Of a DNA stretch of 64,000 nt, positions 13,434-35,611 are shown piece by piece. The stretch is from Candidatus Poribacteria bacterium (GTDB lineage Bacteria; Poribacteria; WGA-4E; WGA-3G), in assembly GCA_022821965.1 (NCBI GenBank), contig JAJECN010000023.1, forward strand, positions 1 through 64,000, given 5' to 3'. Below the pieces are notes generated by a model. It did no database searches. It was not told the DNA's origin and saw only the letters and a list, made by a program, of their open reading frames with translations. The position numbers and the translations under genes are program-made. Position 1 is the stretch's first letter, and every line of letters starts with the position of its first letter.

Positions 13434-13547
13434 TGTCTGTTGAGACGAACGACAAAAGTGGAACTTTTACCGTGATAAGGTGTGTCTATTTTCTGCACGC
13501 GAGCAGAGGGCATTGATTCTGGACACAATATCACAAAGGAGTCAGCC

Positions 13548-13745
13548 GTGTTAGGAGCAAAACAACAGTGGTGCCCTCGCTGCCAAAGGCACGTACAAAC
13601 AGAGCAAAAGCAGTCCTTTGTTGGCAGACAGAAAGAGCTCGTCAGAATTATTATTACCTGCTTCAAGTGTCGTACGACGCTATCAAGCAAAACAACCAGC
13701 GCAGCTGTGCTTGAACAAAACGAAGACGCTTCGACGGAACAGTAG
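13548..13745 (+). CDS. Small zinc-ribbon protein
   Basis: Protein of 65 residues with two CxxC pairs, CPRC and CFKC, about 31 residues apart, forming a probable zinc ribbon. The GTG at 13548 is preferred because AAAGGAG ends six bases before it; the in-frame ATG at 13482 has no ribosome site. No enzymatic domain is visible. It follows mnmE by 114 bases and precedes the thioredoxin-TPR gene. Function unknown. Confidence 0.6.
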   Translation: MLGAKQQWCPRCQRHVQTEQKQSFVGRQKELVRIIITCFKCRTTLSSKTTSAAVLEQNEDASTEQ

Positions 13746-13820
13746 TGCAGATGTGCTAATGACACTCCTGAAATTAATGGAATCGTAAATTAAGACGTTA
13801 CTTAAAAAAGGAGAGAATCT

Positions 13821-14729
13821 ATGTTTAATTCTGTTTTTCGCCGCATTTCACTCGGTGTCTTACTACTGATGGTGGGCACAGTCCCCGCGCTCATTGCGGG
13901 TGAAGGGGTTAAATGGGAAAAATCGCTTGAGGACGGCATGAAAAAAGCCGCGAAGACCGGCAAACCCATTATGCTGGATTTCTACACTGACTGGTGAGGC
14001 TCATGCAGTCGGCTGGATGCCGAAACATTTACGGATGCTCGCATCGTCGAAATGTCCAAAAAATTCGTTACCATCAAGGTCAATCCTGAAGATACCGAAC
14101 ACCCCGAAAATAGAGAAGCCCTTATGCGGTATGAAGTCCGCGGCTATCCGACGATCGTTTTCGCGAGTTCGGACGGTGGCATGATTGCCGAGCACGTAGG
14201 ATTCGCCGGTCCTGATCGCTTCGCACCGGTGATAGAAGCTGCGTTGGAAAAAGAGGAAGCTTTCTCGAAAAAACTCGCCGAACTTGAGAAGAAACCGGAC
14301 GATGCCAAACTTAACGCTCAAGTTGCGCTTACCTATTTAGAGCGGAAGCAGCTTGAAAAGGCGGTCCCGTTCAGCGAGAAAGCATTTGAACATGATCCGA
14401 GGAACAAATCAAAGCTCATCCCAAACGTGCATAACCAGTTGGGAATCGCTTACGCCACAACGCTTGATGCTATGCTTGAAAGTCCTGAAGCCGAGTCATC
14501 GTTTGAAAAAGCGGTCTCTCACTTCAAAACTGTGATAGACAAGTATCCGAAAAGCGATGTCTATGAACACGCCCAGTTTTATCTCGGTGTGACGTACGGC
14601 ATCAAAGGGCATTTTGAAGACGCGATTGCGGTGCTTGAAAAGTTGGCCCATCATACTTCGGATGAAAATATAAAGCGGAGTGCTGAAGCGAGGTTAGAAC
14701 AGGTTAGAGATTTGGCAGGTTCCAAATAA
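13821..14729 (+). CDS. Probable selenoprotein: secreted thioredoxin-fold/TPR protein with UGA at the first redox cysteine (UGSC)
   Basis: Thioredoxin-like periplasmic protein of 302 residues if the in-frame TGA at 13995-13997 (codon 59) is read through. The ATG at 13821 follows an AAAAAAGGAGAGAA ribosome site, and residues 1-26 form a signal peptide. The domain then reads GKPIMLDFYTDW-U59-G-S-C62-SRLDAETF, where homologues have WCxxC, so U59 replaces the attacking cysteine and C62 is the resolving one. The cis-proline loop GYPTIVF follows near residue 117. The C-terminal half from about residue 155 is helical with TPR-like repeats (ALTYLERKQLEKAVPFSEKA, QFYLGVTYGIKGHFEDA). Start-to-stop prediction would cut it to the ATG at 14052. 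Inference: selenocysteine; the alternative is a nonsense mutation. Confidence 0.8.
14009..14023 (+). promoter_or_regulatory. Candidate bacterial SECIS hairpin
   Basis: TCGGC (14009-14013) and GCCGA (14019-14023) form a 5-bp stem with loop TGGAT. The loop begins 16 bases after the UGA and has G as its second base. This fits the known form of bacterial SECIS elements: a short stem just downstream of the UGA with a G among the first loop bases. The stem is short, so this is suggestive only. Confidence 0.45.
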
Positions 14730-32600: not shown

Positions 32601-33702
32601 CAAAGATGTCGGACGTGCACTTGAGGTACCTCTTGAAGATGTCGAAAAGTTGACCGAACTTATTCCGTCCATTCCCGGTATAACACTTGATGAAGTTTTG
32701 GCACGGGTGCCAGAATTTCAGACACTTGCGGAGCTCCCTGAAAATCGGGAGTTGATTGGGATTAGCAAAGCAGTGGAAGGCATGAAACGGCACGTTTCCT
32801 GTCACGCCTCTGGAATCGCGATTTCAGACGGTCCCCTGACAAATTACGTTCCACTCTTCAAGGATAGACACGATCAAGTGGCAACGCAGTTTGAAGGGAA
32901 GAGTGTTGAAAATATTGGCATTGTCAAGTTTGATTCTCTCGGTTTACGGAGTCTTAGCGAAATACACGATTGTCTTCAGATGATTGAGGCGAACCACGGT
33001 GTTAAGCTTAAACTGGAAGAGATTCCTTTTGACGATAAAGAGACCTACACACTTGTTAGCAACGGACTTATTGCCGGTTTATTCCAGTTGGAAGGTTCCG
33101 CTGGTATGTATCGGGTGGTTACCCAACTCAAGCCGGATAACTTTGAGGAGTTTTCCGCTATTCCAGCACTCTATCGTCCGGGTCCGATAGAAAACGGTGA
33201 CATGCAACAGTACATAGATTGGAAGAACGGATTGCAGCCCATAGAATATGTACACCCTTCGCTTGAGGGTGTGCTTAAAAGCACTTATGGGGTCTGTATC
33301 TACCAAGAACAGGTGATGCAAATCGCACACGATATAGCAGGCTTTACCCTCGGTGAAGCGGATGTCCTCCGCAATGCAATGGGCAGGAAGGACGAGGTGC
33401 TGATTGCCGCACAGCGTAAGAAATTCATTGAGGGCGCGGTGAAAAAGCGGAATCTCACTAAAAGCGAGGCTGAAGAGATGTTTGATTGGCTTACGTTGGT
33501 TGGTCGCTATGCCTTTAATAAGTCGCATGCTGTCGCTTACTCGATGTTGGCGTACCGCATGGCGTATCTGAAAACACACTATCCAAGTGAATTCATGGCA
33601 GCCATGATGATCGGGGAGGCAGGCGATTCAGCGAAAATCGTCCACTACCGAGAGGAGTGTGGGAAACTCTCTGATTTCTTGGGGGTAGAAGTCAATGTAT
33701 AG
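29650..33702 (+). CDS. Chimeric protein: ECF sigma factor, FtsZ and truncated DNA polymerase III alpha in one frame
   Basis: Single open frame of 1350 residues. Residues 1-190 form an ECF sigma-70 factor (region 2 LAARYSSRIWQLVVWNSRQV and DAEEIFQDIWVAVWE, region 4 LPEKVRTVAVLYYLEMWTIKEIAEEIG). Residues 196-519 are a complete FtsZ: GVGDAGGNAIKRM, NTDLEAL, tubulin signature GGGTGTG (307-313), synergy loop NVDFAD (409-414). After a Ser/Thr-rich linker, DnaE starts at residue 551 with PHP motif EFVHLHNHSEYS, fingers ARGSAAGSLV, palm PDIFIDF (942-948) and KFDSLGLR (1093-1100). It stops where DnaE normally continues to its HhH, OB and clamp/tau-binding parts. Palm F945 replaces the Asp equivalent to E. 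coli D401; D947 and D1095 remain. M196 (30235) may be an old FtsZ start. Function unknown; assembly artefact must be excluded. Confidence 0.85.
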   Translation: MQYDSSTYTDLTDEELIRLVQSGDEEAFAQLAARYSSRIWQLVVWNSRQVRDAEEIFQDIWVAVWENIGGLREVSSFGAWLWKIAYTTCRRYYTRNTRAGGEILQSAEQLAETIDRNANARFRETELRAAVAEAVYDLPEKVRTVAVLYYLEMWTIKEIAEEIGLAVGTVKTRLREIRTLLRKEFGVEEVKRETTMTQKKEVSKSSRNIIKVFGVGDAGGNAIKRMIAAGLKEIELKEIGFYAVNTDLEALRTCDGATQVQIGAEITQGLGADANPEVGRGAAEEDLETLNTVVADARLVFVTAGMGGGTGTGAAPLIASLAREQGALTIGVATSPFDFEGQRRAEQAEYGLQELRNNTDAVIVIPNQRLLDTVDAEPSTSEAFRMSDETLVLSIKTVADIIVESGEINVDFADIESIMKDAGTVLMGVGQASGENRARIAMQNAMTSPLLDGKRIGGATGIIVQISAPPDFMMNELDASMNVLQEEAFDAQIIFGLVYRDNDPEPDDTVIVTILANGIEPQRGSTTPLSTQKNDTSPGGGTYVPSTTGSEFVHLHNHSEYSMLDGACRIPDMVDWAVENSVPAVALTDHGNMFGAWELYNKATEAGVNPIIGCEVYVAHGSRKTREQEQGGPYHLTLLAEDVTGYRNLSELVSLGYTEGFNRKPRIDMEILREYRDGIIALTGCIQGQVPRLLCENRREEAIQNLKTLMEIMGQRNLYVELQNHYIDKELEAYPVMVALAKEFNLPLVGTNDCHYLRKSDHGMHDVLLCIQTKKTVNDQERLRYDNHFYFKDVDEMREALKDYPPEAISNTLEIANRCNLELDDQRDPMPKYKVPEGYTHDSYLQELCYQGLREKYGELSEPVRQRIDYELKIIGQGDHANYFLIVGDYVNYAQKQGYPITARGSAAGSLVLHALDVVGFNPMDHGCLFERFLNLERIDRPDIFIDFADRAREHVVAYLTKKYGADSVSKVATFATLGAKAAIKDVGRALEVPLEDVEKLTELIPSIPGITLDEVLARVPEFQTLAELPENRELIGISKAVEGMKRHVSCHASGIAISDGPLTNYVPLFKDRHDQVATQFEGKSVENIGIVKFDSLGLRSLSEIHDCLQMIEANHGVKLKLEEIPFDDKETYTLVSNGLIAGLFQLEGSAGMYRVVTQLKPDNFEEFSAIPALYRPGPIENGDMQQYIDWKNGLQPIEYVHPSLEGVLKSTYGVCIYQEQVMQIAHDIAGFTLGEADVLRNAMGRKDEVLIAAQRKKFIEGAVKKRNLTKSEAEEMFDWLTLVGRYAFNKSHAVAYSMLAYRMAYLKTHYPSEFMAAMMIGEAGDSAKIVHYREECGKLSDFLGVEVNV

Positions 33703-34249: not shown

Positions 34250-35611
34250 TTATTTTGCCAAATCCCGCGCCTCTTTGAACTTGTCCTTAGCGAACTGTCC
34301 CCACTCCTTTCTTTTCTCGTTGCGGACTGTGGGATCTTTCCAAGCACTAACTGCCATCTCCATCGCCTCTTCTTCGGTTATTGGCATCTTCGTTAAAGCT
34401 GCAATTGCTGCATCGCGCTTTGCTGGGTCTTTACACTTTTGAATCGCTTTCCACGCGTTGACAAGATCCTTGTGAGAATCGATAATCAAAACGCCGAAGA
34501 GGCCATTAACAATATCCCATCGGGTGCTGCCTGTATCTGAGTTGTATAGAAACAGATTCCCTGCTGTACTGAATGGGTTTGGGACGATGCATCTTTCTCC
34601 CAATTCATCGTAGAGTGCAGGCAGCACGCTCGCGCGGTTCAAACCACCCTTCCATTCAGGTCCCTCTGGATCGGTATCGCGGAGCATCCAGAGTTTCTGA
34701 GCATCTTCCGATAAAACGAATTCAAGAAACTTTTGCGCGACGGGTAAGTTCGGCGCGCCTTTGAGAATTGCAATTGGATCGGCAGTGATAACCGTGCCAT
34801 CGGCTGGAACAATATATTTGATCTTGTCGGCTCCAACAACAGCAATTTGGCCGTAGGCGTAAAAATCAATTGCAAGTCCATAAATAGCTTGTCCAGCGAC
34901 AACATCTGTTGGAATAGCGTTAGCACCGGCGGAGAAGCCTCGAACATTCGCGCCGATTTTCGTCAAGAGTGAGAACCCTTCTTCCCATCCAAGGGTTTGA
35001 AGGATGATCTCATAGACCATGTGTGCGGAACCGCTTTCTCTCGGATCTGCTGCACCAATTCTACCGAGCAACGCCAAATCTCCCAAATCCTGCCATGCTG
35101 AGGCTTTCGGGAGTTGTAGCATTTCACGCAGCTGCTCATTGTACATGATACCGAAGCTGGATAACGCTGCGCCATACCACCGATGTTCGGCATCATAGAG
35201 CGGAATCCCTTGAAACGATTGGGTCATCTGCTCAAGTTGCGCTTCGGGTAGTTTGTAGGCGTGTAACCATCCATTATTTGAGAGGCGGAGGTAGTTGTCA
35301 GTACCGCCACCGAAGAAAATGTCAATATTGATGCCTTCCGGCACCCGTTTAAATTCCGATTCGATGAATCGATAGTTAGAAGAGGTTCCTCCGACATCTC
35401 GCCAATCAGTTTTGACGGTTCTGCCGGTCTGTTCTTCGTACCACTTCTCGAAATTTTTACCAAATTCTGCCTCAATACCCTCCGGATGCGGGGAGATAAT
35501 GATGAGTTCATCTTGGGCAAACACGACAGCGGGCAGTGCCAGAAAACATAACACAATTCCCCATGTTGCAATACATGCACCGCAACGTCTTAGGGATTTT
35601 AAATAAGACAT
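34250..35611 (-). CDS. Periplasmic solute-binding protein of an ABC transporter
   Basis: Secreted binding protein of 453 residues, class II-like extracellular solute-binding fold (Fe3+, thiamine, spermidine or sugar group). Signal peptide covers about residues 1-32 (LCFLALPAVVFAQD). Family features: ELIIISPHPEG at the mature start, FGIMYNEQLRE, the AADPRESGSAHMVYE stretch and FLEFVLSEDAQKL. The length is greater than usual because of a helical C-terminal extension (CKDPAKRDAAIAAL onward). A good AAGGAGA ribosome site precedes it. No permease or ATPase gene is adjacent. Confidence 0.85.
   Translation of the reverse strand: MSYLKSLRRCGACIATWGIVLCFLALPAVVFAQDELIIISPHPEGIEAEFGKNFEKWYEEQTGRTVKTDWRDVGGTSSNYRFIESEFKRVPEGINIDIFFGGGTDNYLRLSNNGWLHAYKLPEAQLEQMTQSFQGIPLYDAEHRWYGAALSSFGIMYNEQLREMLQLPKASAWQDLGDLALLGRIGAADPRESGSAHMVYEIILQTLGWEEGFSLLTKIGANVRGFSAGANAIPTDVVAGQAIYGLAIDFYAYGQIAVVGADKIKYIVPADGTVITADPIAILKGAPNLPVAQKFLEFVLSEDAQKLWMLRDTDPEGPEWKGGLNRASVLPALYDELGERCIVPNPFSTAGNLFLYNSDTGSTRWDIVNGLFGVLIIDSHKDLVNAWKAIQKCKDPAKRDAAIAALTKMPITEEEAMEMAVSAWKDPTVRNEKRKEWGQFAKDKFKEARDLAK

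Follow-up and report, generated by a model that had tools for sequence, protein, structure and literature searches.

Results

An in-frame TGA at the active site of a thioredoxin-like gene

In the genome of a Candidatus Poribacteria bacterium, a thioredoxin-like gene is crossed by an in-frame TGA, which raises the question of whether translation ends there or whether the codon is read as selenocysteine (Sec). The gene lies in a window of 64,000 nucleotides, the whole stretch of DNA analysed here (positions 1 to 64,000 of contig JAJECN010000023.1, assembly GCA_022821965.1). From the ATG at 13821 the frame runs through 58 sense codons to a TGA as codon 59 (13995-13997), then through 243 further sense codons to a TAA at 14727-14729, and on recount we found the first-pass annotation exact in this respect. 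Stop-free stretches of 243 codons were obtained in 0 of 20,000 cases in a Markov-1 simulation. A mechanical ORF listing of the locus yields 14052-14729 alone, as had been anticipated for standard gene calling. The TGA stands in the context DFYTDW-U-GSC-SRLDA, at the first Cys of the thioredoxin CxxC motif; this placement, also proposed earlier, is borne out by Pfam thioredoxin and TPR matches that share one register across the TGA. The parts of the locus are the following.

13482..13745, + strand: conserved neighbouring ORF of 87 aa with a zinc-ribbon-like CPRC...CFKC pattern
13810..13815, + strand: probable ribosome-binding site GGAGAG, 5 nt 5' of the ATG, read from the sequence
13821..14729, + strand: full Sec-thioredoxin-TPR coding sequence, 302 residues including Sec, then TAA
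13821..13898, + strand: signal-peptide-like N-terminal segment MFNSVFRRISLGVLLLMVGTVPALIA, with a putative cleavage site
13914..14240, + strand: thioredoxin-like domain, about residues 32-140 (Pfam PF13899/PF13098, AlphaFold model)
13995..13997, + strand: Sec codon TGA, first (attacking) position of UxxC, assigned from orthologue conservation
14004..14006, + strand: C62, resolving cysteine of UxxC, invariant among 49 aligned orthologues
14010..14022, + strand: SECIS candidate (synonymous constraint, compensatory change, fold)
14052..14054, + strand: ATG of the naive gene call, a start that is not conserved
14148-14150, + strand: P110 of the cis-Pro-type motif GYPT, invariant among the aligned orthologues
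14283..14717, + strand: TPR-type helical C-terminal domain, about residues 155-299 (Pfam TPR matches, AlphaFold model)

The gene order yidC-jag-mnmE-87 aa ORF-Sec-thioredoxin gene-rluB is found genus-wide and partly in order-level relatives. The 87-aa ORF between mnmE and the Sec-thioredoxin gene had no Pfam match, and it occupies the same upstream place in nearly all relatives for which the flank is available.

Sec machinery and the meaning of UGA in the genome

The first-pass annotation had named selA, selB, selC and selD as the genes to look for, and all four are present in this genome. We found a tRNA-Sec with anticodon TCA (78.1 bits) directly adjoining selB, which scored 349 bits and covered profile positions 1-579 of 581, together with selA (600 bits) and selD (359 bits), the latter carrying one in-frame TGA of its own. 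A weaker match to the selD profile (G000:C53:7754-8479, L021; 98.9 bits, below the cut-off of 125) contains no stop and is probably a related kinase-family protein. At the same time, UGA is a normal stop here, as rnpA, jag, mnmE and pdxJ in the window terminate with TGA.

By a strict cut-off, selA was detected in 50 of 59 relatives. Five relatives (G004, G012, G030, G034 and G049) have the orthologue and a selD match with selA unmatched; four of these genomes are 81-90% complete and G030 is 96% complete. Conversely, G051 and G055 have neither selA nor selD nor the Sec-thioredoxin gene. The source MAG is 95% complete with 3.9% contamination; in closed single-contig relatives such as G005, selA, selD and the Sec-thioredoxin gene share one contig, which excludes contamination as the origin of the association.

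We used selD as an internal control and observed the UGA in every one of the 54 genomes that gave a match. The 31 copies that were read (L020, L128-L157) show a covarying 4-bp stem (GCUC/GAGC, GAUC/GAUC, AGUC/GGAC and GGUC/GACC) with a 5-nt loop and the same 16-nt spacing as the element described below.

Conservation of the TGA across the phylum

An orthologue carrying a single in-frame TGA was present in 73 of the 85 genomes covered by a phylum-wide profile search, in addition to five second copies, all in one genus; a contig end truncates the second copy in G008, which was left out of judgement. Base-by-base reading of this codon covered 52 orthologues, a scope narrower than the 73 genomes, and in all 52, which come from many genera and whose identity falls to 27-29%, the Sec codon is TGA. 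Relative to the window protein, identity averages 63% before the TGA and 59% after it. Since both halves and the TGA are conserved in these 52 orthologues, chance or sequencing error is an untenable explanation for the codon.

The same profile search returned no Cys orthologue among the 85 genomes, the remaining matches being DsbD-like paralogues. Close relatives with TGC or TGT, or a frameshift, at this place had been named as evidence that would speak against Sec, and neither was found within the phylum. The sole Cys version that we observed is a distant Chthonomonadaceae homologue in which TGC follows the same DFYTDW residues. This Cys-containing homologue aligns at the UGA, and the Pfam thioredoxin and DsbD profiles also run through this position. 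Among relatives the motif takes the forms UGFC, UGAC, UGWC, UPSC, USWC, UGVC and others; given these varied middle residues, the conserved motif is UxxC and UGSC is not invariant.

In G076, a genome of the same family that is 95% complete, we found a DsbD-like match only and no Sec-thioredoxin-TPR orthologue, a possible case of loss.

A conserved SECIS candidate downstream of the UGA

A bacterial-type SECIS candidate, CGGC[UGGAU]GCCG, begins 12 nt 3' of the UGA. Its arms are CGGC (14010-14013) and GCCG (14019-14022), its loop is UGGAU (14014-14018), the UGA-to-loop distance is 16 nt, and in the window sequence one additional U-A pair (14009/14023) can form. The bSECIS model asks for a stem of 4-16 bp, a loop of 3-9 nt with a G within its first two positions, a UGA-to-loop spacing of 16-37 nt and a minimum free energy no higher than -7.5 kcal/mol (PMC13188914). 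The candidate falls within all of these limits, with a stem of 4-5 bp, 5 nt in the loop, G as the second loop base, 16 nt of spacing and an energy of -8.2 to -9.7 kcal/mol in segments of 22-42 nt.

The stem-loop is also visible in the way the coding sequence has been constrained. The codons at +5 to +9 downstream of the UGA (Arg-Leu-Asp-Ala-Glu) show the strongest synonymous constraint of 111 five-codon windows, with a diversity ratio of 0.11 compared with a gene mean of 0.70. Within them, Leu is encoded by CTG in 51 of 51 sequences, whereas all six Leu codons are freely used elsewhere in the gene, and Arg is encoded by CGG in 43 of 44. Furthermore, the second stem pair is A-U instead of G-C in seven orthologues, in which Arg CGG has become Gln CAG together with a change of Ala GCC to GCT. 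This number of double changes was equalled in 0 of 500 shuffles, and the G-C to A-U change occurs at three separate points of the protein tree (L027/L030/L031, L035/L040 and L046).

Imperfect stems also occur: there is an A-C mismatch in L080 and a poor stem in L086, and some order-level relatives no longer form the outermost pair. Over the 76 nt that follow the UGA, the folding energy was no better than that of shuffled sequences (z 0.26), and a scan of the locus with Rfam matched no family. The probability of the stem was 0.10 within 13960-14060 versus 0.79 when the RNA was taken from 13995 on, so that RNA 5' of the UGA can compete with it if free.

Alternative readings of the TGA

That the TGA is a mutated or miscalled Cys codon, in a pseudogene or by sequencing error, could be argued from the imperfection of the MAG (95% complete, 3.9% contamination). 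However, the same TGA was present in every orthologue inspected, one in-frame TGA per orthologue recurs over 73 independently assembled genomes, closed ones included, and conservation persists on both of its sides, which refutes this reading and leaves it a vanishingly small probability. Standard ORF calling leads instead to two genes, a 58-residue peptide and a separate protein from ATG 14052. Such a protein would be left without the active site and half of the thioredoxin fold, and conserved thioredoxin residues are encoded between the TGA and 14052. Moreover, the ATG corresponds to a Leu codon in 47 of the 52 orthologues, which means that an independent start at this point is not kept; initiation at 14052 was rejected for this reason, and we see next to no chance that two genes lie here. 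Several genes of this genome carry in-frame UGAs, as would be expected if UGA had been reassigned to, or suppressed with, a standard amino acid (Trp, Gly or Cys) without any use of selenium. Yet conserved genes end in UGA here, the window yielded a single tRNA-Trp, with anticodon CCA, the in-frame UGAs that were read fall on known redox Cys positions or on the Sec position of SelD, and a complete Sec system and a SECIS candidate are present, which makes reassignment very improbable.

Sequence comparison thus identifies the locus, almost certainly, as a selenoprotein gene whose UGA is read as Sec; its product would be an exported oxidoreductase of the thioredoxin type. The first-pass annotation had favoured a selenoprotein, and this is now supported by the Sec genes, by the lack of a Cys or frameshifted relative in the phylum and, beyond what it had described, by the conserved SECIS candidate.

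Fold and predicted function of the protein

The protein belongs to the thioredoxin-like superfamily by profile scores above the curated cut-offs (Thioredoxin_7, PF13899, 58.4 bits, and Thioredoxin_2, PF13098, 54.8 bits, both against a cut-off of 27), by its thioredoxin fold and by the invariant cis-Pro P110. In the AlphaFold model (mean pLDDT 91.3, pTM 0.84), a canonical thioredoxin fold is followed by a helical TPR tail. Residue 59, which is Cys in the model, stands at the start of the active-site helix, the C-terminal TPR region is all-helical with pLDDT mostly above 90, and residues 1-26 are disordered. The hydrophobic N-terminus is retained in all orthologues, and its signal-like character points to a periplasmic location. 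Among solved structures, those closest to the protein are DsbD C-terminal domains and a Bacteroides disulfide isomerase. Based on the fold, these structures and the invariant C62 and P110, we propose that the protein is an extracytoplasmic thiol-disulfide oxidoreductase acting via Sec59 and Cys62. In the best reading of sequence and model, the product would be an exported Sec enzyme that works like the C-terminal domain of DsbD.

Comparative evidence suggests that SelB-tRNA-Sec, recruited to the stem-loop at 14010-14022, would read the UGA at 13995-13997 as selenocysteine, and that the N-terminal signal peptide would export the product. Outside the cytoplasm the protein would then act as a thioredoxin-type thiol-disulfide oxidoreductase, in which Sec59 may attack a substrate disulfide or an oxidised substrate and Cys62 may resolve the mixed selenylsulfide. 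Re-reduction would most plausibly be provided by the genome's own Cys-type DsbD-like protein (C9:324211, 617 aa), and the most likely role of the TPR tail is the docking of partner or client proteins.

The same selenoprotein could also be chiefly an extracytoplasmic chaperone-redox protein, an analogue of CnoX/YbbN whose TPR part binds clients while Sec reduces them. The thioredoxin-TPR architecture fits this proposal, and E. coli YbbN (CnoX) ranked first in Foldseek over nearly the whole length (297 alignment columns), but the full-length TM-score was just 0.29-0.30. Moreover, the DsbD C-terminal domain and 2kuc are better supported by sequence and by single-domain matches, and YbbN is cytoplasmic whereas the protein described here has a signal-like N-terminus. 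We regard a chiefly chaperone-like role as rather unlikely, and an oxidoreductase like the DsbD C-terminal domain stays the preferred function.

Comparison with known families

Sec-containing thioredoxins and thiol:disulfide interchange proteins are already known (PMC1794560, PMC13188914). The poribacterial protein resembles them (PF13098/PF00085; PMC1794560 and Table 1 of PMC13188914) in its thioredoxin fold, in Sec at the first position of UxxC, in a bSECIS shortly downstream and in the presence of selA, selB, selC and selD; it differs by its C-terminal TPR fusion and by a UGA in every phylum orthologue found. The DsbD C-terminal (gamma) domain is the best single-domain match in both structure and sequence, and the poribacterial protein would share its extracytoplasmic redox role. 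In contrast to this domain, the poribacterial protein is separate and predicted to be exported, has Sec for Cys and a TPR tail, and lacks a membrane domain. CnoX/YbbN likewise has a thioredoxin domain followed by a TPR-type helical tail, but it is cytoplasmic and without Sec, and its sequence and domain orientation differ.

No NCBIfam model scored above its own cut-off for the Sec-thioredoxin-TPR protein. The best score came from TsoB (NF045694, a rhodanese/DsbD-like selenoprotein), over its C-terminal DsbD-like thioredoxin part alone and with 90.2 bits against a cut-off of 805; the poribacterial protein has no rhodanese or membrane part, and we did not assign it to TsoB. The UGSC motif emphasised in the first-pass annotation does occur in the window protein, but its relatives carry other UxxC forms. 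The protein has nothing more than these four letters in common with the UGSC selenoprotein family (NF041046), and membership was rejected, with no match at E 0.01. We also discarded DsbD-like matches with a TGA in G044, G043 and G040 and thioredoxin matches with a TGA in G050 and G054, because their TGA is an ordinary terminal stop and their active site is CxxC, and they are therefore not selenoproteins.

Further candidate selenoproteins of the genome

At least nine further candidate Sec-UGA codons were found in eight genes of the genome, SelD included. Two adjacent genes encode thioredoxins, predicted to be exported, with UGA at the first CxxC position (L091; G000:C9, about 33349-33678 and 34815-35162), and the pair occurs across the genus. 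The thioredoxin at 34815 starts with a dockerin domain, and, by sequence, its neighbour at 33349 begins with dockerin-like repeats. After the UGA of the former, a stem covaries genus-wide (GGCG/CGCC, GGUG/CACC and GGAG/CUCC). In addition, five AhpC/TSA- (peroxiredoxin-) or TlpA-like genes (L178-L182; G000 C12, C6, C62 and C17) carry six in-frame UGAs at redox positions, in the motifs UTxxxC (twice in one protein), UPFC, UGTC, UPNS and UGC; one of these genes has two UGAs in two fused peroxiredoxin domains.

Discussion

These results provide an evidence-backed selenoprotein family for Poribacteria, for which we found no report of selenoproteins in the open-access literature searched; the selenoprotein review PMC13188914 makes no mention of this phylum. 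The Sec-thioredoxin-TPR architecture is unusual, and Sec is present in every orthologue found. Standard annotation would shorten the protein to a form without its active site. As no reversion to Cys was seen across many genera, the family is a good case for studying what fixes Sec in a thioredoxin.

More speculatively, the protein could be an exported chaperedoxin-like selenoprotein, a Sec-thioredoxin with a TPR tail for client binding, that is Sec-only across the whole order and acts as redox hub for an extracytoplasmic selenoproteome of unusual size in sponge-associated bacteria. We hold this view tentatively and think it improbable on balance. If true, that selenoproteome would include the dockerin-linked Sec-thioredoxins and the double-Sec peroxiredoxin, in a sponge setting where selenoproteins would be expected to be rare if oxic. 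Taken with SelD, the dockerin-thioredoxins and the peroxiredoxin-like genes suggest, from their sequences, that a large share of poribacterial selenium may go into exported redox enzymes, a suggestion that would be testable in sponge metaproteomes.
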